Shown in pieces: positions 6,584 through 21,703 of a DNA stretch of 21,937 bases (positions are counted from its first letter, which is position 1; each line of letters starts with the position of its first letter). The notes beneath the pieces were generated by a model, which had not been told where the DNA came from, ran no database searches, and saw only the letters and a program-made list of their open reading frames with translations. A program made the translations under genes and the position numbers. The stretch covers positions 1-21,937 of IMG/VR virus record IMGVR_UViG_3300028388_001912; one strand, given 5' to 3'. The DNA is from a virus.

Positions 6584-6971
6584 TGTAACTTACACCGCGA
6601 GGCGAAGCCTGATGGCCGGTGTCACTGTCGGCACCGAGGTGACGCTCGATTTCTATGTTGATCAACTTGATCGACAGCGTAATGTTGAGCGCCCGCGCAG
6701 GGTGTCCTTGGGCGGCAGGGTCGAATCCATTTTGCACCGATCGGAGTCTTTCATTTCGGCGCGGTTCCAGCCCGTGTTGGAAGAGGATTTTGGCCCATAT
6801 CGACAGTTTCTCGATTCTGTTGAGGGCGGGGAGGAATTCGTATTCGACCCGTACGGGGTGGGCGCCTCGCCGGTGGAGCTGTTAAACTGCGTGATGGAAT
6901 CAGATAAGTACACTGAGTCCAGAATCAACCACTCATATCTCACCGCTTCGTTCAAGGTCAGGGTGCTTTAA
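6576..6971 (+). CDS. Minor tail protein, possibly distal tail type
   Basis: Three consecutive GTG codons (6570, 6573, 6576) could start this gene. GGGAGG at 6565-6570 gives a good 5-base spacing only to the third, so I place the start there. It overlaps the end of the tape measure gene by 8 bp. The 131-residue product is beta-rich with no signal peptide: [23 protein letters not shown], then [20 protein letters not shown], then [11 protein letters not shown] and a final strand [10 protein letters not shown]. Gene position between tape measure and the hub/fibre protein and the pattern 'F.ar...v...D....r.FLDSV..GE.F.FDPYG' suggest a tail-tip ring protein analogous to the small minor tail proteins of other siphoviruses. 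The function is inferred. Confidence 0.6.
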
Positions 6972-9900
6972 TGTCTGGTTTTTCGCCGGTTTTCACGCAA
7001 CAGCTCGCCATCCCGAATCGGTCGCTGCGGTATGTTATCACGATCGAGTTCGGCGGGGACTTGATTGCGTTGACTTCACATACCGATATTGTGTGGCCCG
7101 ACGCGACTCAAACAATCTCTGGTGTGATCTCTGGCGTGTCGCAGGTGTCGCAGCGGCTTAATGTTCTGGAGTCGCGTTCCACTGTTGGTCGGCTGTCAAT
7201 CAAGGCTATCGACTACAGCAACGAAATCAGCTCGATGCTGGCAACGATGCTGTCGCTTGGTTTCGGTGCGCGGAATCGCAGAGTGCGCTACTACATCGGG
7301 TTCGAAGGGTTTGTGGCTAGCGAATTCTCGATGATGGCGACCCAGTACATCTCGGAGATCACATTTGATGACGGCGAGTACCGCATTAATTGCCATGACC
7401 CGCAGGCGAGGCTCAAGCAGAGAATATTCTCGGTCAAGCGTACCATTCTGACTTCGACGGTGGCTGTTGATGCGACGACTGTCAATGTCGCAGACACATC
7501 GGATTTCGAGTTGGTCGTTCATGGCGCGTCTTACACTGACGCACCCAACAGCACCGTGGGCTACATCCTGATCGACGACGAAGTTATCAGGTATACCGGC
7601 AAGACCGCGACTAGTTTCACCGGGTGTACTCGCGGGGCATTCGGCACAAAGCCCAAAGAACACGAAGTTGGGGACGGCGAGACTTCGCGCCGTCCTGAGG
7701 TGCGCGAGTATGTTTACCTTGAGCTGCCGGCCATCAAGATGGCGTACGCGCTGCTCACAGGTATTGTGCATCCGGACGCGACAACTCTCCCCGATCACTG
7801 GCATACGGGCATCGAGCCTGAGTTGATTGATTTCGACTCTTTCACCGGGATCGGGCGCGATCTGTGGGACCCAACCAACGATCTTGCCGGTATGGTTATC
7901 AGGTTCACGGGGCCTGAAGACGAAGAATCGAAAGCTTTCATTGAGCGCGAAATATACCGGATGGCCGGCGTCTACTCTCCTATCTTGCGAGAGGGCGGTC
8001 TAATCTCACTGCGGCGTATCGCTCGTGTGGACCCGGAAACGCCGCATGTGGCGCGACTAACCTCTGCGAATGTGGTGAAGGTCGGCGCACTGAAGCACGA
8101 CATCTCTGGAATGAAGAATGTGTTCCGGGTAGACTGGAACTACAATGACATAGAGGACAAGTTTACCCGCGCACTGCAGATCGAGGACGGTGAATCAATC
8201 ACTCTCTATGGCCGCACCGATGTGCACAACCTGCAACTGCGTGGGCTGCACGGGGCGTCGCACACACAAAACACACTCTTAAACATTATCGACACACTGC
8301 GTGACCGGTTCTCCGGCCCGCCGCTGACGACCACTGTCGAGGTCTTGCTCAATACTGCTTCGGTGTCCGTTGGTGATGTCGTTCGCCTGACGCTTGATGT
8401 CGTTCGCGACTATCAGGGCAACGCGACGAGCATCGATCGCGCGATGGAAGTGCAAGAGGTTTCGCTCGACGCCGTGCGCGGTGTGCTCAAGCTCAAGCTC
8501 TTCGGATCCGCGCGCGCTAGCGAGGCGACGGTTCCGCAAGCCTCGGCCGCGCTGGCCGATGGCTTTTATAGCTCCGAGGGCACGGATCTCAGCTCTGTGA
8601 CCTCGATCGATGTCAGCGGCAACCTCACGGCCGACGCTGACATCACCGGCGGGCCGGATCTCAACGCGCCGGCGGCGATCTTCTACTACATCGGCAATCT
8701 CACGATTCCGGCCGGTCGCACCCTGACGACGCGCCAGAATGTGCAATTGCGCGTCATGGGTCAACTGACCGTCAACGGCACCATCAGAGCCATCGATGGG
8801 CTGGCCGGGACGAGCGATAACTTCGGTAATGTTGGTTTAATCGGTGCGGCGTCTGGTGGTGTTGGTGTTTATTCTAGGGTGTCGGTGCTGAGCGGTACAC
8901 CCCTGCGAACAGCGGAAACCATAGCCCCGGCAGTTGTCCGTGCACCGAATCTGACGCTGCCGCAGTTTGAACTTGAGAATTACGACGGCACCGAAATTCT
9001 AAACTTGCCGACGGATTTGCGCGGTATTGGTGCTCCGCGCGGCCGTGATGCGACAATGGAGTATGTGGTCCTAGCACAACCGGGGCCGTATGAGACATCC
9101 ATCGCTTCCGGCGGTGCCGGCGGCGATGGTGGCGGCGGTCTGGTGGTGGTCTGTCGAGGCATGGCGACCGGCGTCGGTGGGCTGGTTGATACTTCGGGGG
9201 CGGCTGGGTCGGTAGGTGGCGCTGCGTTCCACGACATGTTGGGCATCCCGTTCGTTCAAGCTGGTAGTGGCGGCGGCGGCGGGCCGGGTGCGTTCCTGCT
9301 GCTGTTGGATGGCTCGCTGTCGATTATCCCAGACTTGGGAGGTCGATTCCATGCCAGAACGGGGGAAATCCCGGTCGGTGTGGGCGTTGGTGTTTTGCCG
9401 CAACCGTTCATCCCTGATCTCGTCCTGTTTAACGACACCAATCCGGCCTTCGACATCTGGCAAGGGAACAAGAGTGAATCGGATGAGCTGAACGAAGCTG
9501 TTTTTGATTCGGCTCTGCGGCGCATCCAGTTCATCCCCGACCCTGAGATACCGCTGCCGGATCCGGCCTCGGCCGAGGATCCCGGGCTCGTGAATGTCGT
9601 CTCGGGCGCGCTCACGCAGCCGGCCTTTATCTCGCCGGCCGAGGCCGACGGCAGTGCGCCCGATCTCACCGGGCTCGGCGGCACCTTCGAGGTGTTCCAA
9701 GGTGATCAGGATGTCACCGCGTCGGCGGTCTTCTCGGTCAACGTGCCGGCCGCCGTCGACGGGCTCACGATGTCGATCGATGCTGCCGGCAACTACTCCG
9801 TTTCGGGCGCATGGTCGAATGCCTCGAATTTGATCACATGGGAGCTCCGTGCTGAGTTCGAGGGCGTGATCCTGATTCGATCCTTTGTGCTCTCGAAGGC

Positions 9901-12900
9901 GCGCGCCGGCCTCGACGGCACGAATGCCGAGGGCGGCATCGATATCGTGTTCACCCGGGCCGCGTCGCAGCCGGCAACCCCGGCACCGTCGGACGGCACC
10001 CCGAGCGGCTGGTATTCCGATGTCGACTCAGTGCCGGCGACGGCCGATCCGATGTGGAGCTCGATCGGGCAGCGCCCCGATGCGCTGAGCAATTTCACAT
10101 GGGAGACGCCGCTGCTCATCGAGGGAACGAACGGCAACCCGGGCGCATCCGTGGCCGAGGTCTCAGCCTACACCCGCAGCGCGGCGCAGCCGGCGAATGC
10201 GACGGGCGGCTCGTATGACTTCGACACGAACGCGCTCACCCCGCCGGCCGGTTACTTTGCCGACATCCAGACGGGCACGGATCCAGTGTGGATCGTGCGC
10301 GCGGTGGCGAGTATCTCCGGCACGAGCGGCGTCGACAGCTCGCTGACTTGGTCGGTTCCGGTGCAAGTGTTCGCCGATGGTGAGACCGGCCCGGAGGGGC
10401 CGCAGGGGCCGTCGGGCGACGACGGGATCTCGATCGCCGAGCTCTCGATCTTCACCCGCGACCCGGGCACGCCGGCGGGTCCGAGCGGCGGCTCGTATGA
10501 CTTCGGCACCGGCGTGCTCACGCCGCCGTCGGGCTGGTTCGTTGATATCCCTTCGGCCGGCACCGACCCGGTGTGGACGGCACGCGCTGTTGCGAGCGTC
10601 ACGGGCACGACGGGCGTCGACAGTTCGCTCGCGTGGTCTCCGGTCGTGCGCGTGTTTCAGGATGGCACCGACGGCACAAACGGCACAAACGGCACCGACG
10701 GATCCGGCGTCGATATTGTATTCCGTCGCGCTCCGTCGCAACCCGCGACGCCGGCACCGTCGACCGGCACCCCGGCGAACTGGTACAGCGATGTCGGCAG
10801 TGTGCCGGCTGGCGCGGATCCATTGTGGAGCTCGATCGGCACCCGCCCCGACTCGACCAGCGCGTACACATGGCAAACGCCAGTCAAGATCGAGGGCATC
10901 GACGGCGCTGAGGGGCCGGATGGGCCGCAAGGGCCGTCGGGGGATGATGGCCTATCGGTTGCCGAGATCGTGGCCTACAGGCGCTCAGCAGGCACGCCAG
11001 CGAACGCGAGCGGCGGCTCATACGATTTCAGCACAAACACTCTGACGCCGCCGGCTGACTGGTTCGCCGATATCCCGGCGGCGGGCACGGATCCCGTGTG
11101 GGCCGTGCGCACTGTTGCCTCGGTGGTCGGTCAAACGGGTGTCGACTCATCTCTCTCGTGGTCGGCTCCGGTGCGCGTGTTCGCCGATGGTGCCGACGGG
11201 CAGGCCGTCGACATCGTTTTCCGCCGGGCGACGACGCAGCCGGCGACGCCGGGCTCGAGTTCTGGCACCCCGACGGGGTGGTACAGCGATGTCGCTTCGG
11301 TTCCGGCTGGCGCGGATCCCTTGTGGAGTTCCGTCGGCACGCGCCCGGATGCTTCGAGCAACTTTACATGGCAAACGCCGATCAAGGTCGAGGGGCTCGA
11401 CGGTGCCGAAGGGCCGGAAGGGCCGCAGGGGCCAGACGGTCCGACCGGGCCGCAGGGACCAGACGGTCCGACCGGGCCGCAGGGACCAGACGGTCCGACC
11501 GGGCCGCAGGGACCAGACGGTCCGACCGGGCCGCCGGGGCGTGATGGCGGCAACACAATCACGAACGGCGGTTTCGAGACCGGAGACGCGACCGGCTGGA
11601 TTCTTCCGAGTGTTGGCTCTCCTGCAATTACATCATCTCAAACTCGCAGTGGCGGCTATTCTCTGTCTCTGGCCGAAGGCAGCGGCGGGCCAGAAGTCGC
11701 CTCCGAGTATTTTGCAGTCGAGCCCGGCGATCGATTCAGGGTCGGCGGTTACTTGATGCGTGATGAGTCGTCGCTGCCGGCCAGTCAAGGCCGCGTCGCG
11801 ATGCGCTTTTATGATGAGAATAGCTCACAGCTTGCTATCGTAAATGCTGCAACCGCAAGCCAGTCGGTGTCCGGATGGCAGCGGGTGGAGGGATACGCTA
11901 CAGCGCCGGCGGGGTCGAAGTATGCTCGAGTCGACTGCGGAACTGGATCAAATACGACAGCGGTCGGGCGCTGGTTTTTCGATGATATGTATTGCTATCG
12001 CACCCTCCCGGGCGGCGATATTGATGATGGCACTCTAGGCGTTACAAAGTTTGCCTCGAGCATTGAGCCGGTGACGATCGTGTCGTCGGTGCCCGGCTCT
12101 AAATCGACCGAGACGGTGTTCAACACAACCGACGGCAAGCTCTACCGCTGGAACGGCTCGGCCTACACGAAAGCCGTCGACGACGACGACATCGTCGAGA
12201 TCAACGCGAACAAGATTAACGCAGACTGGCTCACGGCGGGGGCGATTTCTACGGGCGCGATCGGTGCAAATGAAATTGCCGCCGGAGCGATCACCGCCAA
12301 CAAGCTCGCGATCTTTAGCACCTCTCAGGTGCTTATCGATGGCATGTTTACGAATGCGGGTAATTTTCTTCATGGAGCGGGCGGGGGCTACTCATTCGAG
12401 GATCGCATCTCTGACACAAACGTCGCCAACAACCTAGTCGCTCAAACTGCGCTCAAGATCCCGATCACAACGACAGCAAACGGTGTCTATGCTCGAACTG
12501 GCGACACTAACTATTTCAGTGTCACACCCGGGGAGACCTATCGCATCAAATACCGCGCATGGTGCACCTCGGACGCGAACACCGATGCAAGAATCTATCT
12601 TGCTCTCACGGATACCACGGGGGCGACTCGATGGCCGTCGAAAAACGCATCGAGGCTCGACTGCAACACCCCGGGCGGGTACTGGCTTGAAGGGCTGGTC
12701 ACTGCCGAAGCCGTAGCGAATGGGTATGTCGCGGACGAATATAGGGCGCGCATTTATATCCGCGCCGACGGCACTACATCACCCGCCGGCACATGGTATA
12801 TCACCGACCTATCGGTCGAGAGGGTGTCCAGCTCGACCCTGATCAAGGACGGCGCGATCACGACCGACAAGATTGCGGCAAATGCAATCACGGCAGGGAA

Positions 12901-14329
12901 GATCGACGTTACGCAACTTTCGTCCGTTGCTGCGGTTATTGGGGAGTTGCGTAATCGTGTGGACGAGTCTGGGACGGTACCGTTCATGCGGTTGTCTGCA
13001 AGCGACTCCCCAATCGAGATTTTTGACAACAACGGTTCCAGTGGGCAACGACTGCTTGGTGTCGATTCTGTCACCGTGAATGGACAGCAGCAAATTCGCG
13101 TAGGCATACGGGGTTCGTTCGCGGCAAACACCATCAACGATGCCGCGTGGCTGACTGACGCGGGTGCTGACGCACTCCGCGCACGTCTTGGTTACGTCGC
13201 TCCTATAAACCCCTCTGGCGGCACAATCTCACTTGAGGGTGAGGCTTTAAGCCACACAACAGTTACACAATATGTGGACCTCAATCCTAGTACGATCACT
13301 TCTGCTGGGGCCGGCGCATACGCCAGTGCGTCACTTAAGCTTTATGGCCAGTATTCAATGGAGACGAGCACTGACCCGAATTGGACAGCACCACGGTACA
13401 CGGTTCAGTTCCAGTTTGATAACAGCTCGACGTTCGCTTCACCAACCAATTTTGGCTCTGCTCAGCTGCTGATCGGCCATGCAAATTACATGCCTGGAGA
13501 ACCAGCAGAAGGCATTCCGGGCACGGCTGCTGTAGGAATCTCTGCAACAGCCACGGTTGACGGCAATTTGCCCGCAGGTGAAAGTGCTGGCACGATGTAT
13601 TGGCGGGCGATAATCACACGCACTGTCGCGTGGCCGGGTATCACACCGAACATTTTCGAGGTGGAGACGTTCACCGCTACTGAAGAGGTAGTTGGCGATG
13701 TGGCAGCGCACACCCACACCGATTACGTTTCTACCGGTGGTGGTACCATCACTGGTACCCTCAACGTAGACACAGACCTCTATGTCGGTGGCGGCGGCAC
13801 TGGGACGACCGGGGCGTTGCGTCTGTTCAAATCAGGCGAACATAGCTACATCAGAAGTTATGACCACTCGGGCAACGTCTATATCCAAGCAGAAGATGCT
13901 GGCGGCGTACTGAGAAACCTGTGGTACGCCGACCCGGACGGCAGCTCATACATGTATGCCGATGGTACGGCTCGCATCACGGCGACCACCGTAGGAGCAA
14001 CAATCTCCGGCTCCCTCACGGCTACCAGCAATATCACCGCGTATTCGGACGCTCGGCACAAGGAGAACGTAGAAACGATTCCGGCGGCGCTGGATAAGGT
14101 CGGCCAAATGCGTGGCGTCTACTTCACCCGCAAGGATGATGAGACGCAACGCCGCCACACTGGCGTCATCGCGCAGGAAGTGGAACAGGTGTTGCCTGAA
14201 GTGGTCTTTAAGGACGACAATACAGACAGCCTGACCATCGACTATGGCAACGTCGTCGGCGTGTTGATCGAGGCGATAAAAGAGTTGCGCGAAGAAGTGC
14301 GGCTGTTGAAGAAGGAGCGCGACAAGTGA
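6971..14329 (+). CDS. Giant tail hub/fibre protein with collagen-like tracts and self-cleaving S74 C-terminus
   Basis: This 2,452-residue protein begins at an ATG overlapping the previous TAA (TAATG). Residues 1 to about 520 look like a tail hub domain, including [20 protein letters not shown], a strand motif common in phage tail proteins. A Gly-rich stretch spans about 710-780. Residues 990-1475 are six repeat modules (A-B-B-A-B-A) with short collagen-like linkers. Residues 1476-1526 are a GPQGPDGPT collagen-like tract. Residues about 1528-1675 ([12 protein letters not shown]) and about 1787-1953 look like carbohydrate-binding jelly rolls. Between and after them are GAI...KIAA linkers typical of phage fibres. 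The C-terminus is a peptidase S74 chaperone: SDARHK at 2359-2364 gives the Ser/Lys pair with the usual five-residue spacing, then [15 protein letters not shown], then a coiled coil. Known relatives cut themselves just before this Ser, which here would release about 94 residues after trimerisation. The role is receptor binding at the tail tip. Confidence 0.85.
9938..11395 (+). repeat. Six-module repeat array (A-B-B-A-B-A) within the giant fibre gene
   Basis: Module A (about 63 residues, starting [13 protein letters not shown] and ending W.TP.K.EG) occurs at residues 990-1052, 1247-1309 and 1413-1475. Module B (about 78 residues, starting S.AE...Y.R and ending V.VFADG, with GGSYDF, TPP..WF.DI and DPVW inside) occurs at 1060-1137, 1153-1232 and 1329-1407. 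Linkers are [23 protein letters not shown] and [13 protein letters not shown]. Copies are diverged but clearly homologous at DNA level too, and the whole stretch is more GC-rich than the surroundings. Confidence 0.9.
11421..11528 (+). repeat. Four tandem 27-bp repeats encoding collagen-like GPQGPDGPT
   Basis: Units start at 11421, 11448, 11475 and 11502. The only difference I see is G versus A at one position in the first unit. Each encodes three Gly-X-Y triplets. The tract continues into GPPGRDGG. Near-identity implies recent expansion and likely copy-number variation by slippage. Confidence 0.95.
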
Positions 14330-14900: not shown

Positions 14901-15266
14901 ATGGCACACACAATCGAGAAAAGATGGAACAGCGCCCGCAGAGCGGATGGCTCTGTGCAGGAAGGCGTAAATGAACTAGTAGGACAGGCTTGCACCAACG
15001 TCCTCCATGCTATCCAAGCCGGAGAGGAGTTGTACCAGCAGCTCACCGAGATGGTTGCCTTCGCAGGTGATATGCAGGCGGTTGCAGACCAGCTCTTCAA
15101 GGAGCAGTGGGACATGCGAGGCGAGACTGGGGCCAATGCCACTGAACTGGCGATGGTGCAAGACGCGGCTGCTGCTTCCACCGCGCTGCACCAGCTCTAT
15201 GAGGCCATGAATAATGGCACCGTGACTGCTGATGACCGGGCCGGCAAACTGCGACGCATGATCTGA
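14901..15266 (+). CDS. Unknown helical phage protein
   Basis: The frame is open from further upstream, but an ATG at 14901 follows AAGGAGAAG at 14888-14896 and begins 17 bp after the previous stop, so I start it there. The 121-residue product is predicted all-helical (QEGVNELVGQACTNVLHAIQAGEELYQQLTEMVAFAGDMQAVADQLF...), acidic, with no membrane segment or signal peptide. I do not recognise the family. It lies between the fibre genes and the lysis block and overlaps the next gene (TGATG). It could be a minor virion protein or a tail fibre assembly helper. Confidence 0.65.
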   Translation: MAHTIEKRWNSARRADGSVQEGVNELVGQACTNVLHAIQAGEELYQQLTEMVAFAGDMQAVADQLFKEQWDMRGETGANATELAMVQDAAAASTALHQLYEAMNNGTVTADDRAGKLRRMI

Positions 15267-15541
15267 TGGAAGGCAGCGTGATCAGCTTGGAGGCAGCGCT
15301 CACAGTCCTCGGCATGGCGTTCGGGGCGTGGGCGGCTGTCGTCGCGTGGGGTGTGCAGGTCATTCGGCAGGAAGTCCGCGACATGAAAGCCGCCGCCAAG
15401 GGAACGAGCGATTCTCTGACTTCACACGTCAATCAGACCGAGCGCCGCCTGACGATGCTAGAGTCCGAGTGGCGTTGGCTGAAGGACTGGTTTATAGACA
15501 TTCGTAACCGCACCAACAACCACGGAGGTAAGGAACTATGA
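15266..15541 (+). CDS. Small membrane protein with coiled coil (lysis block)
   Basis: The ATG overlaps the upstream TGA; an in-frame GTG at 15278 is an alternative start. The 91-residue product has one membrane helix at about 10-32 (LTVLGMAFGAWAAVVAWGVQVI) followed by a charged, coiled-coil segment (RQEVRDMKAAAKG...TERRLTMLESEWRWLKDW). This topology, with a single N-terminal anchor and a helical tail, is seen in phage class III-like holins, antiholins and other accessory lysis proteins. The next gene is a better pore candidate, so this one may be a regulator or partner. The function is inferred from position and topology. Confidence 0.6.
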   Translation: MEGSVISLEAALTVLGMAFGAWAAVVAWGVQVIRQEVRDMKAAAKGTSDSLTSHVNQTERRLTMLESEWRWLKDWFIDIRNRTNNHGGKEL

Positions 15542-15828
15542 TCGAGGCGTCACTCTGGATGGCTGCGCTGGCGATGGTGTTGGGTGTGCTGACCCACGTC
15601 TTCGCCGAGATCCGCGAGTTGCGGCAGACTGAAGGGGCGGGATTCCATGTCAAGCACTACCTCGTCGGCTACCCATATCGCAATCTCGGCATGGTCACGT
15701 CTGCCATCGGCGCGTTCTGGATGCTACAGGAAGCGAACCAGCTTACGATGGCGGCAGCGTTCTCGGCTGGGTACATGGTAGAGTCTCTGGCAAATAAGTT
15801 CTCTGACCGCGTGAGGAAGATTACATGA
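15538..15828 (+). CDS. Putative holin (multi-spanning small membrane protein)
   Basis: GGAGG at 15523-15528 precedes the ATG. The product has 96 residues. I see a membrane helix at about 5-22 (SLWMAALAMVLGVLTHVF), a second at about 48-66 (RNLGMVTSAIGAFWMLQEA) and a possible third at 70-86 (TMAAAFSAGYMVESLA), with a basic C-terminus (DRVRKIT). Size, number of helices and location immediately before the spanins fit a holin, which opens the inner membrane to the endolysin. There is no sequence motif that proves it. It overlaps both neighbours by 4 bp. Confidence 0.6.
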   Translation: MIEASLWMAALAMVLGVLTHVFAEIRELRQTEGAGFHVKHYLVGYPYRNLGMVTSAIGAFWMLQEANQLTMAAAFSAGYMVESLANKFSDRVRKIT

Positions 15829-16097
15829 TTGGATTGTTTGATTCTGTGGCCAATGTGTTTATAGCGCTCACTGTCGTGCTGTCAGGCATTGTGGTCACAC
15901 TCTACAGAGTGTGGCGTGGCTCCAAGCGACGCGAACAGGAAGCCGCCAACATGAAAGAGGAGTGGGCCGAGCTGATTCGTCGTGAGCGACAAGCGCGAGA
16001 AAAAGCTGAAGCCGCCGAATCGCATGCACGGCAGAGCGAGCGTGACGTCGTAGACCGCGCAAGGCAGGGCGACCGCACACACTTCGAGGAGCAATGA
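15825..16097 (+). CDS. Inner-membrane spanin subunit (i-spanin, Rz-like)
   Basis: The 90-residue product has an N-terminal signal-anchor helix at about 8-28 (VANVFIALTVVLSGIVVTLYRVW) followed by a long, highly charged coiled coil (KRREQEAANMKEEWAELIRRERQAREKAEAAES). That is the classic i-spanin layout: anchored in the inner membrane with the coil reaching through the periplasm. The very next gene encodes a small lipoprotein with a proline-rich middle, the expected outer-membrane partner. The pair is arranged with a 4-bp overlap and is not embedded as in lambda. Together they would fuse inner and outer membranes in the last step of lysis. Confidence 0.75.
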   Translation: MIGLFDSVANVFIALTVVLSGIVVTLYRVWRGSKRREQEAANMKEEWAELIRRERQAREKAEAAESHARQSERDVVDRARQGDRTHFEEQ

Positions 16098-16339
16098 TGA
16101 GATGGGCTATCCCGATTGTGCTCTTGCTGTGTGGTGGCTGCGCCACTCGCACGGTGTATATCAACACCGAACTGCCGCTGCCACCGGAGCCAGTGCTGCC
16201 AACCATCACGGCGGAGAACGTGGCGTGTCTCAACGACGAGACGTACGAAGCACTAGTGCGCCGGGAAGCGCGGCTGAAGGGCCACATCTTCGTGCTGCGC
16301 AAGATCATCGAAGATAACAACAGGAGCGCTGAGCCATGA
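16094..16339 (+). CDS. Outer-membrane spanin lipoprotein (o-spanin, Rz1-like)
   Basis: This 81-residue protein starts with a short basic N-region and a hydrophobic core ending in LLLCGGC, giving a lipobox with Cys16 as the acylated residue. The mature part is proline-rich at 29-38 (PLPPEPVLP), then helical and charged (YEALVRREARLKGHIFVLRKIIEDNN). A lipoprotein signal plus Pro-rich segment immediately after an i-spanin gene is the standard o-spanin signature. Its start overlaps the i-spanin stop (ATGATG, so the start may be 16094 or 16097) and its stop overlaps the following gene. Confidence 0.75.
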   Translation: MMRWAIPIVLLLCGGCATRTVYINTELPLPPEPVLPTITAENVACLNDETYEALVRREARLKGHIFVLRKIIEDNNRSAEP

Positions 16340-16818
16340 GCCGACGCAAAAAGACCGTTTGGGCCGTCGCCGCGTTCGTCGTGCTGTTCGTCGTGCTGCT
16401 GGCCAATGAGGCGCGCAGCGACACGCTCGTCGAGCTGGTTCCCGGTGTGTCGTGGGTGGGGAGCGAGCGGTACACCGGCACGGGACTCGCCATGGTGGAG
16501 CGGTTCCAAGGCAAGTACGACGTCGGGCTGATATTGATGTCTAGCCAAGAGACCAGCGGCAGTAGACGTCCAGATTATGGCGGCAATATGGGCGTTCATG
16601 CGCAACGCATAGTTCGCTGGAAGGATTTGGAGCTGGGCTTAGGCGTTGCGTACTGGGCGAACCAGACGCCAGCTTGGTCTTCCAACACGACGTTCTCGCT
16701 GTCTGTCGGCTACCGATTCGGCCCCATGGAAGTCCGTGGCAGACATTTCAGCACGGGCGGTTCTTCCGCGCGCAACAGCGGACTCGACATCGTGACTATC
16801 GGCTGGAGATTCAAATGA
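16336..16818 (+). CDS. Secreted outer-membrane beta-barrel, PagL-like lipid A deacylase candidate
   Basis: The 160-residue product has a basic N-region, a hydrophobic core and a signal peptidase-like end near residue 28 (NEARS). The rest alternates as transmembrane beta strands (GLAMVERFQGKYDVGLILMSS, LELGLGVAYWA, TTFSLSVGYRFG) and ends with aromatic-terminated WRFK, an outer-membrane barrel terminus. PagL of Pseudomonas aeruginosa uses His126, Ser128 and Glu140. Here His137 and Ser139 in RGRHFSTGG have the same two-residue spacing, and Asp151 lies 14 residues after the His, where PagL has Glu. Size also fits. If active it would remove an acyl chain from lipid A. The E-to-D change makes activity uncertain. 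It is translationally coupled to the o-spanin, so it is co-expressed with lysis genes. Confidence 0.6.
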   Translation: MSRRKKTVWAVAAFVVLFVVLLANEARSDTLVELVPGVSWVGSERYTGTGLAMVERFQGKYDVGLILMSSQETSGSRRPDYGGNMGVHAQRIVRWKDLELGLGVAYWANQTPAWSSNTTFSLSVGYRFGPMEVRGRHFSTGGSSARNSGLDIVTIGWRFK

Positions 16819-17153
16819 TGCTCGCTGCTCTGACACTTACGTTGGCTTTGACGACGGAGCCTAGTTACGTAGACGCATTCTGCACAGGCGTCATAGAGCA
16901 TCGTCTGGAGGACGGCACACGCGTTGATTGTTTGTTGGAAGACGAGGCGCAGGAGTGGGACTGGGGCAAGAAGTGGCACGAGGCCATCGGCCAAGCACTC
17001 TGGTACGCAGCCAATACGGGCAGGCGAGCGACGATTGTCCTGATCCTGAAAGACAACCGTGATGAGTTGGGGTTATGGAGGGCTAGGCGCGTGGTGGCTC
17101 ACTATGGCTTGCCGGTCACGATTCGTACCGCAACGGAAGAGGGGGTGAGGTGA
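16815..17153 (+). CDS. Small secreted protein with PD-(D/E)XK-like signature
   Basis: I start it at the ATG at 16815 overlapping the barrel gene's stop; 16818 is an equally good ATG. Residues 1-14 are hydrophobic (MMLAALTLTLALTT), a likely signal peptide. The mature 95-100 residues hold GTRVDCLLEDEAQEWDWGKKW followed by HEAIGQALWYAANTGRR and IVLILKD. A conserved Asp (38), acidic Glu47/Asp49, Lys52/53 and a helix with Gln60 are arranged as in the PD-(D/E)XK nuclease-like fold, and I recall small secreted bacterial proteins with the same E-x-D-x-x-x-K-W-x-E-A-I-G-Q pattern. The catalytic assignment is inference. A periplasmic nuclease encoded in a lysis block would be unusual. Confidence 0.5.
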   Translation: MMLAALTLTLALTTEPSYVDAFCTGVIEHRLEDGTRVDCLLEDEAQEWDWGKKWHEAIGQALWYAANTGRRATIVLILKDNRDELGLWRARRVVAHYGLPVTIRTATEEGVR

Positions 17154-17356
17154 TGTGGTTTTTGATTGGTGTTTTGCTGTTCCCGGCGCTGGTCGGGCTG
17201 TTCGTGCTCTACCACATTTTCCGGTCGCAACGGTTGCCTGCGGACAAGACGAATCGCATCAACAAGATCCGGCTCATCTGGTTCGTGCTGACGCGGGAAG
17301 ACCTGTTCGTGAAAACATTTCCGTGGCTTACCCGCGACGAGTTGGATAATGTATGA
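17153..17356 (+). CDS. Small single-pass membrane protein
   Basis: The ATG at 17153 overlaps the preceding TGA and follows GGGGGTGAGG; a GTG one codon upstream is less suitable. The 67-residue product has one strong membrane helix at about 2-22 (WFLIGVLLFPALVGLFVLYHIF) followed by a basic, hydrophilic tail (FRSQRLPADKTNRINKIRLIW). It precedes the endolysin gene with a 4-bp overlap. Pinholin, antiholin or another lysis accessory are possible; nothing in the sequence decides among them. Confidence 0.6.
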   Translation: MWFLIGVLLFPALVGLFVLYHIFRSQRLPADKTNRINKIRLIWFVLTREDLFVKTFPWLTRDELDNV

Positions 17357-17751
17357 TCAAGGACCTTCCGAACTTCTCGATGGATGAGTTGCGTTGCAAG
17401 GGCAGTGGTATGCTTATCCTCGCACCGGGTTTTGCACAGGCGCTCCAAGGACTGCGTGACGCTGTCGGTGTGCCGATGGTCATCAACTCCTGCTGCCGCT
17501 CCAAGGAACATAACGCAGCCGTCGGTGGGCATCCCCGCTCGCTGCATGTGTGCGATGAGCCGTACTGGGTGACGGGTGGTGCCTGTGCCGTCGATGTGCG
17601 GGCAATCCGTGGCGAGGATGACGAGTTCCGCGCCCATCTGGAAGCCGTCGCTTGGGCGCGGGGCTGGTCGATCGGGTTCCACCCCCGGTTCCTGCATCTC
17701 GACCTCCGAACTGAGTACGCCGGCCGGCCTCAGGCGAGGTTCGTCTACTAG
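17353..17751 (+). CDS. Endolysin, M15-type zinc peptidase
   Basis: The 132-residue protein has the layout of peptidase family M15 (VanY/phage L-Ala-D-Glu endopeptidase type): NSCCRSKEHNAAVGGHPRSLH at about 45-65, GGACAVDVRA at 75-84 and FLHLDLR at 113-119. Candidate zinc ligands are His65, Asp81 and His115. It would cleave peptide cross-bridges or stems of peptidoglycan. There is no signal peptide, so it depends on a holin to reach the wall. It is the last gene of the lysis block; its TAG is followed after 5 bp by the -35 box of the next promoter, with no terminator in between. Confidence 0.85.
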   Translation: MIKDLPNFSMDELRCKGSGMLILAPGFAQALQGLRDAVGVPMVINSCCRSKEHNAAVGGHPRSLHVCDEPYWVTGGACAVDVRAIRGEDDEFRAHLEAVAWARGWSIGFHPRFLHLDLRTEYAGRPQARFVY

Positions 17752-17752
17752 G

Positions 17753-17829
17753 GGTATTGACAAAGGGTCCGGGGGCATGTTCTAATTTCCCCATGGTCGG
17801 ATTTCCCGGCCCCGATAGAGGATAGAGAC
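17753..17829 (+). repeat. Duplicated promoter-leader cassette, copy 1 (copy 2 at 18373-18449)
   Basis: Positions 17753-17829 and 18373-18449 align without gaps at an exact 620-bp offset from the -35 box to the start codon. The region from the -10 box to the ATG is nearly identical, with one difference in the leader (C/T) and one just before the ATG. The main differences lie in the spacer between -35 and -10. The two downstream genes do not resemble each other apart from the first few residues (MTR), so the regulatory cassette was duplicated or recruited on its own. Confidence 0.9.
17757..17786 (+). promoter_or_regulatory. Sigma70-type promoter P1
   Basis: The -35 box is a perfect TTGACA at 17757-17762, and the -10 box is TCTAAT at 17781-17786 with an 18-bp spacer. 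The leader carries GAGGAT as ribosome binding site before the ATG at 17830. The half-site CATGGTCGGAT is present downstream at 17792-17802, but its upstream partner is not. Confidence 0.8.
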
Positions 17830-18372
17830 ATGACCCGCAAGATCACCAACATCGCCGCCGCTTTTGACATGCTGAAGCCCGGTCTGGTCAAGGAATTCAC
17901 CGAGTCTGTGACCGCCCGCGTTGAGTCCCTCCTCGCTTCCTACGACAACGACGCCAATGCCATGCGCAAGCTGGCCCATGAATACAGCAGCGATGGCAAC
18001 GCCTACCGCGCCCTGCGCCATTTCTTTGCGTCGGTCGAGAAGCACCCGGTCACCAACTTCCCGATTCGTTACGGTGTGAACCACGAGCGCATCGCCAAGG
18101 AAGCGATCGAATACGCCGATTTCACCGTCGCCAAGTTCGTCATCAAGCTGACCAAGAAACTGGCCGATCTGGACAATGTCGAATTCGTGCAGTCCAGTTA
18201 CGGCACCGACTTCTCGATCTGCGGTACGCTGAACGGTCGCGAAGTGCAGGTCGATCAGCGCCAGATTCTGAACTGGTCGCCGAAGGGCAACCCGTTCCAC
18301 CAGTTCCCGGCCCTGATCTATGTGGACGGCAAGAAGGTTTCCGAAAAGCAGTTCAAGGAGCTGGCCCGCTGA
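17830..18372 (+). CDS. Unknown phage protein, promoter-driven small-gene block
   Basis: The ATG follows GAGGATAGAG. The 180-residue soluble protein appears to have a helical N-terminal half (ITNIAAAFDMLKPGLVKEFTESVTARVESLLASYD; YRALRHFFASVEKH) and a mixed alpha/beta C-terminal half (IAKEAIEYADFTVAKFVIKLTKKLADLD, then strands FSICGTLNGREVQVDQRQIL and FPALIYVDGKKVSEKQFKEL). I do not recognise the family and see no catalytic or metal motif. Having its own consensus promoter right after the late genes suggests early or constitutive expression by host RNA polymerase. Confidence 0.7.
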   Translation: MTRKITNIAAAFDMLKPGLVKEFTESVTARVESLLASYDNDANAMRKLAHEYSSDGNAYRALRHFFASVEKHPVTNFPIRYGVNHERIAKEAIEYADFTVAKFVIKLTKKLADLDNVEFVQSSYGTDFSICGTLNGREVQVDQRQILNWSPKGNPFHQFPALIYVDGKKVSEKQFKELAR

Positions 18373-18376
18373 GGTA

Positions 18377-18406
18377 TTGACAAAGTATCCGACCATGTGG
18401 TATAAT
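18377..18406 (+). promoter_or_regulatory. Sigma70-type promoter P2
   Basis: Consensus TTGACA (18377-18382) and consensus TATAAT (18401-18406) are separated by 18 bp. It drives the gene at 18450 and probably those after it up to the terminator at 19715. Both hexamers are perfect, so it should be strong unless repressed. An inverted repeat encloses the -10 box. Confidence 0.9.
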
Positions 18407-18422
18407 TTCCCCATGGTCGGAT
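18387..18422 (+). promoter_or_regulatory. Operator-like inverted repeat over the P2 -10 box
   Basis: ATCCGACCATG (18387-18397) and CATGGTCGGAT (18412-18422) are perfect 11-bp complements separated by 14 bp that contain TATAAT. The expected transcription start is inside the right arm, so the repeat works as DNA, not as an RNA hairpin. A dimeric repressor bound here would block RNA polymerase. No regulator gene is visible in the window. Confidence 0.65.
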
Positions 18423-18449
18423 TTCCCGGCCCTGATAGAGGATAGAGAG

Positions 18450-20134: not shown

Positions 20135-21703
20135 ATGTCAAACAGCAGCCTGCAGGCTGAGGATATTTCGCGTTTTGCGCGGCTGTTCATGGGCAACGAC
20201 CGATCAGTCGGTCGCTACCATCCACGCACCCGCCGGATGGAAACAAAGCATAGGGGGCCGGCACTGGAAGATTACGAGGAGCACCTGATCGGGAAAACCG
20301 GTGTGGGTGTTGTGCCGATCATGGATGATAGTAATTGCTGGTTCGGCGCGATCGACATCGACGCGCATGGGGCCGATGAGAGCATTGACCTGATCAAGCT
20401 GGAGGAGGAGGTACGTGAGCGGGAGCTGCCGCTGATTGTGTGCCGCTCGAAGTCTGGTGGTGCGCATTTGTATGTCTTCGGTAAGGAACCATTACCTGCT
20501 GAGTATGTTCGGGTGGTGCTGGCGCAGTGGGCGTCCGATCTTGGGTTCCCCGGTGTCGAGGTGTTCCCTAAGCAATCGGTTTTGCCGAAAGACCCGGACA
20601 CTGGGAATCGACAATTTGGTAACTGGATCAATTTGCCGTATTTTTGCCAGCATGACACCGAGCGTTATCAGGTGCATCGTGGCAAAGAGGTTTCGTTTGA
20701 TTTCTTTCTGACTGCGGCCGAGACTTCACAAATCACAGCATCCCGGCTCGATGAGTTGCGCAGCGATGGCCATGCGGGTGCTCCTCCTTGCCTGCAGCGT
20801 CTGATCAACGAGGGCTGTAGCTCCGGAGCCAGAAACGAGGCCATGTACAACCTTACTGTGTATATGCGCAAGGCGTTTCCGGAGGAGTATCGCGATAAAC
20901 TGTTTGACCTGAACAACCGTATCTTCGACGTGCCGCTGCCGCATAGTGAGGCGAGGCGCACGATCACCAGTGCGTCCAAGCGCGATTATCGGTATAAATG
21001 CCGAGAGGCACCAATCAAGGACCTGTGCGATCGCCAGACCTGCCTGAAACGCAGATTCGGCATTTCACCGGCCGAAGCCGAGGATTTAAAGCTTGTCGCC
21101 GAGATGCCTGAAATCGGGCCATTGTACAAGTACATGACCGAGCCGGCACGATGGGAGTTGATGATTGGTGACAAGCCGGTAATCCTGACCACGACTGTGC
21201 TGTACGACTGGAAACGCATCAGGGTCGCCTACACCGACACTCACACCAGCGTTCTGCCGATGATCCCGGCCAAGGAATGGGAGCGGCAATTGCGAGAATT
21301 GACCGAGAACGCCATCCTGCGCGAGGCACCAGAGGAAGCGTCGACCACCGGGCAAATGAGATGGCACCTGCGTGAATTTTTGCGCAAGGCCGACCTCACA
21401 TCAGATGGTGAAGACCTTGATGAGCGCAAGGCGCTGCTGCGCGGCGTCCCTGTAGTGCAGAAAAAGGACGATGGGCGGGTGGTATACTTCCGAGGCCCGG
21501 ATTTTGTGGCTTACTTGAAACGCAACCGCAGCGAGGAACTGAAGGACGTTAATCTGTTTTTTGCATTGCGTGGTATGGGTGGTCGTGAGATCAACCACTG
21601 TAAGTTGCGCGTCGGCTCTCAGGCGATCAACGTCTGGTATGTGCCGTTGGACGAGGACGGTGAGCCAACGATCGATGTTCCTGACTTCAACCCAGGATTT
21701 TGA
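20135..21703 (+). CDS. TOTE-type archaeo-eukaryotic primase (AEP superfamily)
   Basis: The 522-residue product has AEP primase motifs: FGAIDIDAH with metal-binding Asp74 and Asp76, then SKSGGAHLYVF (Ser107 to His111), EVFPKQ at 142-147 and GNWINLPYF at 162-170. This set matches the TOTE-conflict-system primase domain also found in phage replication genes. Cys219, Cys289, Cys298 and Cys303 (PPCLQ...YKC...DLC...TC) could bind a metal or Fe-S cluster, by analogy to the C-terminal domain of primase large subunits. Residues about 320-522 look like a winged-helix-type extension without helicase Walker motifs. It would make primers, perhaps also extend them, at phage replication forks. A probable helicase gene begins one base after its stop. 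Confidence 0.8.
   Translation: MSNSSLQAEDISRFARLFMGNDRSVGRYHPRTRRMETKHRGPALEDYEEHLIGKTGVGVVPIMDDSNCWFGAIDIDAHGADESIDLIKLEEEVRERELPLIVCRSKSGGAHLYVFGKEPLPAEYVRVVLAQWASDLGFPGVEVFPKQSVLPKDPDTGNRQFGNWINLPYFCQHDTERYQVHRGKEVSFDFFLTAAETSQITASRLDELRSDGHAGAPPCLQRLINEGCSSGARNEAMYNLTVYMRKAFPEEYRDKLFDLNNRIFDVPLPHSEARRTITSASKRDYRYKCREAPIKDLCDRQTCLKRRFGISPAEAEDLKLVAEMPEIGPLYKYMTEPARWELMIGDKPVILTTTVLYDWKRIRVAYTDTHTSVLPMIPAKEWERQLRELTENAILREAPEEASTTGQMRWHLREFLRKADLTSDGEDLDERKALLRGVPVVQKKDDGRVVYFRGPDFVAYLKRNRSEELKDVNLFFALRGMGGREINHCKLRVGSQAINVWYVPLDEDGEPTIDVPDFNPGF

Follow-up and report, generated by a model that had tools for sequence, protein, structure and literature searches.

The window, by which we mean the whole stretch of DNA analysed (21,937 bases, a linear contig from IMG/VR), encodes among candidate spanin and endolysin genes a protein of 160 amino acid residues that affiliates with PagL, the bacterial lipid A 3-O-deacylase that trims fatty chains off lipopolysaccharide. 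Sequence comparison places it with nine further phage proteins in a separate, unannotated clade tied to lysis cassettes, and this clade is what is new. Its members are probably active esterases; the function that we favour, deacylation of an outer-membrane lipid during lysis, is put forward at a little short of even confidence.

Affiliation with PagL, predicted active site and fold

The gene starts with ATG, and its product shows the features that the original prediction had described: a signal peptide, the pattern of strands and a C-terminus with aromatic residues (W-R-F-K); it contains neither a lipobox nor a coiled coil. As read from the sequences, a small-x-small motif follows the hydrophobic N-terminus in all ten family members, and an aromatic residue is located at the C-terminus or adjacent to it (10 of 10). 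The host of the window phage is likely Gram-negative, since its major tail protein resembles those of Vibrio, Xanthomonas and Pseudomonas siphophages (~40% identity).

The predicted identity as a PagL-like barrel was borne out by profile searches. Residues 98-158 matched the Pfam family PagL (PF09411) with 27.7 bits (E 3.3e-6) against a curated cut-off of 23 bits, and five of six family members scanned matched it at E values up to 0.1. A profile-profile comparison of the phage family with bacterial PagLs yielded a probability of 95 (E 3.9e-8). A profile built from 59 diverse bacterial PagLs gave eight of the ten phage members 21.0-29.6 bits (the window protein 21.0) and the remaining two 14.4 and 10.8 bits; among 10,000 shuffles of the same composition, used as a control, the highest score was 17.6 bits. 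In the reverse test, bacterial PagLs reached up to 28.4 bits on the phage profile versus 8.8 for shuffles. Given the PF09411 score, the profile-profile match and the shuffle control, the sequence resemblance to PagL is not a product of chance. The N-terminal half of the window protein is not recognisably PagL and differs from that of bacterial PagLs. PHROGs and NCBIfam held no match for the window protein, and Pfam, searched up to E 1, returned only PagL and an insignificant DUF4213, with no Ail/Lom/OmpX family. OmpX was rejected as the identity of the protein, the similarity reaching E 0.13 only.

Residues H137, S139, N147, G149 and D151 align gap-free with H126, S128, N136, G138 and E140 of the PagL of known structure (PDB 2erv: HYSNAGLKQPNDGIE; window protein: HFSTGGSSARNSGLD). 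Within the active-site stretch (HYSNAGLKQPNDGIES in 2erv versus HFSTGGSSARNSGLDI in the window protein) the H, S, N, G and acidic residues are equally spaced, and the predicted His-x-Ser pair with an acidic residue exactly 14 positions after the His agrees exactly with 2erv. H137 and S139 are located near the end of the penultimate strand (131-139), as is the His-x-Ser of PagL, and D151 occupies the third catalytic position at the start of the last strand, where P. aeruginosa PagL has Glu140. The original prediction had singled out this Glu-to-Asp exchange. The Asp is indeed present, but it is no novelty and was dropped as a distinguishing mark: the third position in 51 motif-bearing PagLs from a phylum-wide draw was E in 23, N in 13, D in 9, T in 4, Q in 1 and S in 1, and four of eight plasmid PagLs also carry Asp. 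H, S, N and G are invariant in the alignment of the plasmid-borne proteins, and the bacterial PagLs that scored best on the phage profile are of the Asp type. The residue after H-x-S is Thr in 10 of 10 phage members and Asn in 51 of 51 motif-bearing PagLs of the phylum draw; the bacterial signature H-x-S-N is thus absent from the phage members.

AlphaFold2 (AF2), supplied with an alignment of eight family sequences and no bacterial PagL, predicted a signal helix and an eight-stranded barrel (pLDDT 81.7, pTM 0.70); a single-sequence run (pLDDT 53) was set aside. Foldseek against the PDB matched the model to the OmpA barrel (E 6.8e-4), PagL (2erv_B, E 7.2e-4) and PagP (E 1.3e-3), each with a TM score of ~0.5, and Ail/OmpX-type barrels were also near-equal fold matches. 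The model thus supports the eight-stranded outer-membrane barrel of the original prediction. The fold alone is not specific to PagL, because OmpA and PagL match equally well, and it is the sequence that separates them. Mean hydrophobicity in strand 7 is +1.72 for positions in register with H137 and S139 versus -1.54 for the others; the corresponding values for the D151 register of strand 8 are +2.55 versus -0.52. Because this register is hydrophobic, H137, S139 and D151 are expected to point towards the lipid from the outer ends of two adjacent strands, an arrangement like that of PagL.

Phage homologues and their lysis cassettes

Within the window, the PagL-like gene belongs to a run of overlapping genes (Table 1). 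The spanin calls are weak and the M15 endolysin call is strong. The stop of the candidate o-spanin gene overlaps the PagL-like start as ATGA, in agreement with the predicted coupling to an o-spanin, the spanin call itself being weak; the PagL-like stop in turn overlaps the start of the downstream gene.

Table 1 Features of the lysis cassette and of the PagL-like gene in the window
Feature	Coordinates	Strand	Evidence
91-aa small membrane protein, possible holin-like/lysis gene	15266..15541	+	ORF; phrog_1296 holin E 0.18, not significant
96-aa small membrane protein, holin candidate	15538..15828	+	position and hydrophobicity; no informative family match
Candidate i-spanin, N-terminal membrane segment and charged coiled coil	15825..16097	+	phrog_2466 Rz-like E 0.0016
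Candidate o-spanin, short, lipoprotein-like, proline-rich	16094..16339	+	phrog_456 Rz-like spanin E 0.0088
PagL-like outer-membrane barrel gene, 160 aa	16336..16818	+	PF09411, AF2 barrel, family alignment
Predicted signal peptide, residues 1-28, likely cleavage A-R-S/D	16336..16419	+	read from sequence
H137-F138-S139, counterpart of PagL H126/S128	16744..16752	+	alignment with PagL
N147-S-G149-L-D151, counterpart of PagL N136/G138/E140	16774..16788	+	alignment with PagL
112-aa exported-looking protein, translationally coupled	16815..17153	+	ORF, junction; no family match
68-aa membrane protein 'NRINKIRLIWF...TFPWL'	17150..17356	+	49% identity with L189:3925-4209
M15 peptidase, endolysin	17353..17751	+	PF08291 E 1.8e-12, phrog_894 E 4.8e-17

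Nine further distinct full-length phage homologues with signal and barrel, 28-54% identical to the window protein, were found in IMG/VR (L187, with the same protein in L188, L189, L190, L191, L181, L192, L193, L196 and L207; L189, L190 and L191 share one metagenome of origin). They were retrieved by degenerate DNA patterns for the active-site motif, L192 via an alignment search. All ten members retain H-x-S, N-x-G and D despite pairwise identities of 23-57%, although the invariance of H, S, G, N and G among the hits is partly built in, since the patterns demanded these residues. A pattern open to Glu as well as Asp, and to Asn, Thr or Lys directly behind the Ser, gave true hits that all carry Asp and Thr; L196, from a pattern with the last position free, nevertheless has Asp, and L192, from a pattern without N, G or D, carries all three. 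The pattern hits L175, L177, L179, L180, L186, L195 and L197 proved on reading to be unrelated frames. No close relative of the window protein emerged from viral and genome contigs searched by exact peptide words, tblastn of cultured phages with the window protein, L189, L192 and L181 gave no match, and no PagL was found in the siphophages related by major tail protein (VpKK5, DoCa5 and PaMx28). Against 398 phylum genomes, the phage profile produced four weak matches only, all of them ordinary H-x-S-N bacterial PagLs.

A tree built from the C-terminal half unites the ten phage proteins in one clade with support 100/99, part of which clustering the shared search motif may account for; a long branch (1.58 changes per column) separates it from the bacterial PagLs. 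Lacking the Asn after H-x-S, the phage proteins are classed as a separate clade and not as orthologues of bacterial PagL.

Lysis genes adjoin the PagL-like gene clearly in seven of the ten members, the window included, and weakly in two; one is negative. A binomial estimate of this adjacency was set aside because it drew on 11 records and a guessed background rate. The homologues beside spanins in other phages that the original prediction had proposed to look for do recur, next to spanin/Rz-like or endolysin genes. In L187 an M15 endolysin (phrog_465, 1.5e-50), a weak i-spanin and an o-spanin (phrog_812, 8.2e-6) accompany the PagL-like gene. L189 has an i-spanin (phrog_739, 2.8e-8) and an o-spanin (phrog_812, 4e-8) whose stop overlaps the PagL-like start as in the window, followed by the homologue of the window 17150-17356 protein. 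Neighbours elsewhere are an M23 peptidase (L190, 3.3e-11), an Rz-like protein (L192, phrog_1152, 4.8e-7), a cell wall hydrolase (L193, PF07486, 8.1e-27) and, in L196, a stand-alone TIGR02594-type domain (1.3e-18, slightly below its cut-off), accompanied by a lipobox ORF and two membrane proteins with coiled coils. L191 and L207 have weak Rz-like neighbours, the one beside L207 being the ORF scanned in L184 on the opposite strand. In L181, T4-like head genes were recognised by eye and no lysis gene was seen in the surroundings.

The small membrane protein 3' of the PagL-like gene in the window and L189 shares the motif NRINKIRLIWF...TFPWL..DE. It also occurs in the Xanthomonas phage LucasX (L271:3950-4174, 74.5%), and because LucasX carries it without a PagL, it was ruled out as an obligate PagL partner. 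Another small, exported-looking protein near the PagL-like gene of L189 (4428-4793) has a weak HNH nuclease match (PF01844, E 0.0031); this protein and that of window 16815-17153 are possibly exported nucleases in lysis cassettes.

Elsewhere in the window, positions 17755-17829 and 18370-18449 hold two nearly identical versions of what looks like a strong promoter with its leader (TTGACA, a spacer of 18 bases, TCTAAT or TATAAT, and an identical leader); they precede small genes at 17830 and 18450. A 522-aa protein (20135-21703) resembles by eye an archaeo-eukaryotic primase-type domain, and a 2452-aa tail protein (6971-14329) has collagen-like repeats (10 protein letters, not shown); its C-terminus resembles, by eye, a self-cleaving fibre chaperone.

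Proposed function and alternative readings

Chances are nearly balanced, by analogy with PagL, that the protein acts late in infection as an esterase, removing an acyl chain from lipopolysaccharide or from a similar lipid of the outer leaflet and so helping to open the outer membrane. The gene would be translated at this stage alongside those for the spanins and the endolysin, and its presumably exported and processed product would sit as a barrel in the outer membrane with the Ser-His-Asp site on the lipid-facing outer side. There it would hydrolyse the ester bond of an acyl chain in lipopolysaccharide (by analogy, 3-O-deacylation) or in a similar lipid; the lyso-type product would loosen the outer leaflet, and the spanins could then open the outer membrane faster or with less force. 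The placement in lysis cassettes supports this reading, because lysis genes recur beside the family and gene context was not a criterion in any homologue search. The window protein is probably an active esterase; lipopolysaccharide as its substrate, and a role in lysis rather than in surface change, are what we infer. Counting against a deacylase at lysis are the Thr after H-x-S, the non-PagL N-terminal half, the context of L181, a residue conservation owed in part to the search motifs, and a fold that matches OmpA equally well.

The main rival reading has the same enzyme alter the infected cell's lipopolysaccharide, closing the cell or its debris to adsorption by other phages or by the phage's own progeny, with the lysis operon only a convenient site for late expression. 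PagL-type chemistry does alter the surface, and L181 is without lysis neighbours. In Pseudomonas prophages a bacterial-type PagL has HNH and terminase genes nearby and no recognised lysis genes, so phages can use PagL outside lysis. Lipid A deacylation, however, leaves intact the core and O-antigen, which are the usual phage receptors, and the repeated occurrence beside spanins and endolysins, in cassettes unrelated to each other, also argues against this reading, which we regard as unlikely.

Less probable still is an active outer-membrane hydrolase of the same fold with another substrate, e.g. surface phospholipids exposed during lysis. The long branch of the phage clade, the Thr for Asn after H-x-S and the divergent N-terminal half, which would shape substrate contacts, are consistent with such a change, yet the active-site spacing and the predicted lipid-facing geometry are PagL-like. 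A non-catalytic barrel comparable to Lom/Ail-type surface proteins, with the PagL motif kept for structural reasons, is the least probable reading and appears decidedly improbable: the near-equal fold matches to OmpA and Ail/OmpX-type barrels and the weak OmpX similarity stand against H-x-S, N-x-G and D retained throughout the family, in part where the searches did not demand them, and the lack of any Ail/Lom family match.

Relation to known PagLs and lysis systems

The window protein resembles P. aeruginosa PagL in its profile match, residue spacing and predicted eight-stranded barrel and, going by the hydrophobicity pattern, probably in a lipid-facing site on the last two strands. It differs in the Asp (common in the PagL family) in place of Glu, in the Thr after H-x-S and in its N-terminal half, and, unlike bacterial PagL, it is phage-encoded, located in a lysis cassette and a member of a separate clade. 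The original prediction of a phage-encoded PagL was right in that a phage carries the PagL-like gene; phage carriage alone is not new. About 110 IMG/VR contigs (L015-L094 among them), by sequence Pseudomonas prophages, carry a bacterial-type PagL (e.g. L017:5977-6486). These proteins are nearly identical to each other and share ~70% identity with the bacterial PagL used as query; in the C-terminal-half tree they fall among the bacterial PagLs, outside the phage clade. PagL genes are common in the phylum, occurring in 81 of 299 genomes. The prophage PagLs correspond to phrog_15758, a family without a function label. As in the window, PagL is here carried by phages, but at the two loci inspected the neighbours are HNH/terminase genes, or a Q-like regulator upstream, and no lysis gene was recognised nearby.

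Gram-negative phages are known to open the outer membrane with spanins or disruptins, neither of which cleaves lipids (PMC6139136). Spanins (Rz/Rz1) and disruptins serve the same stage of Gram-negative lysis, and spanin genes adjoin the window gene; they are not lipid enzymes, however, and the window protein has no lipobox or coiled coil. A lipid esterase of the lysis cassette that acts on an outer membrane is known from mycobacteriophages, whose LysB is a mycolylarabinogalactan esterase (PMC5707550, PMC6139136). If our reading is right, LysB would be a functional analogue; its fold, substrate and hosts are different, and no relationship is claimed. In the open-licence library searched, no paper joined phage, lipid A, deacylase, spanin and lysis.

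We tentatively suggest, with some doubt, that uncultured phages of Gram-negative hosts carry, as a further type of lysis protein, a dedicated outer-membrane lipid esterase of the PagL line, a counterpart of LysB that works with the spanins. The idea lends itself to a direct test, given a short gene with three named candidate catalytic residues. PagL could serve as a name for phrog_15758, and the separate, unannotated phage family of the window protein would gain a function label. If true, a chemical step would be added to the opening of the outer membrane, and lysates would contain altered lipopolysaccharide.
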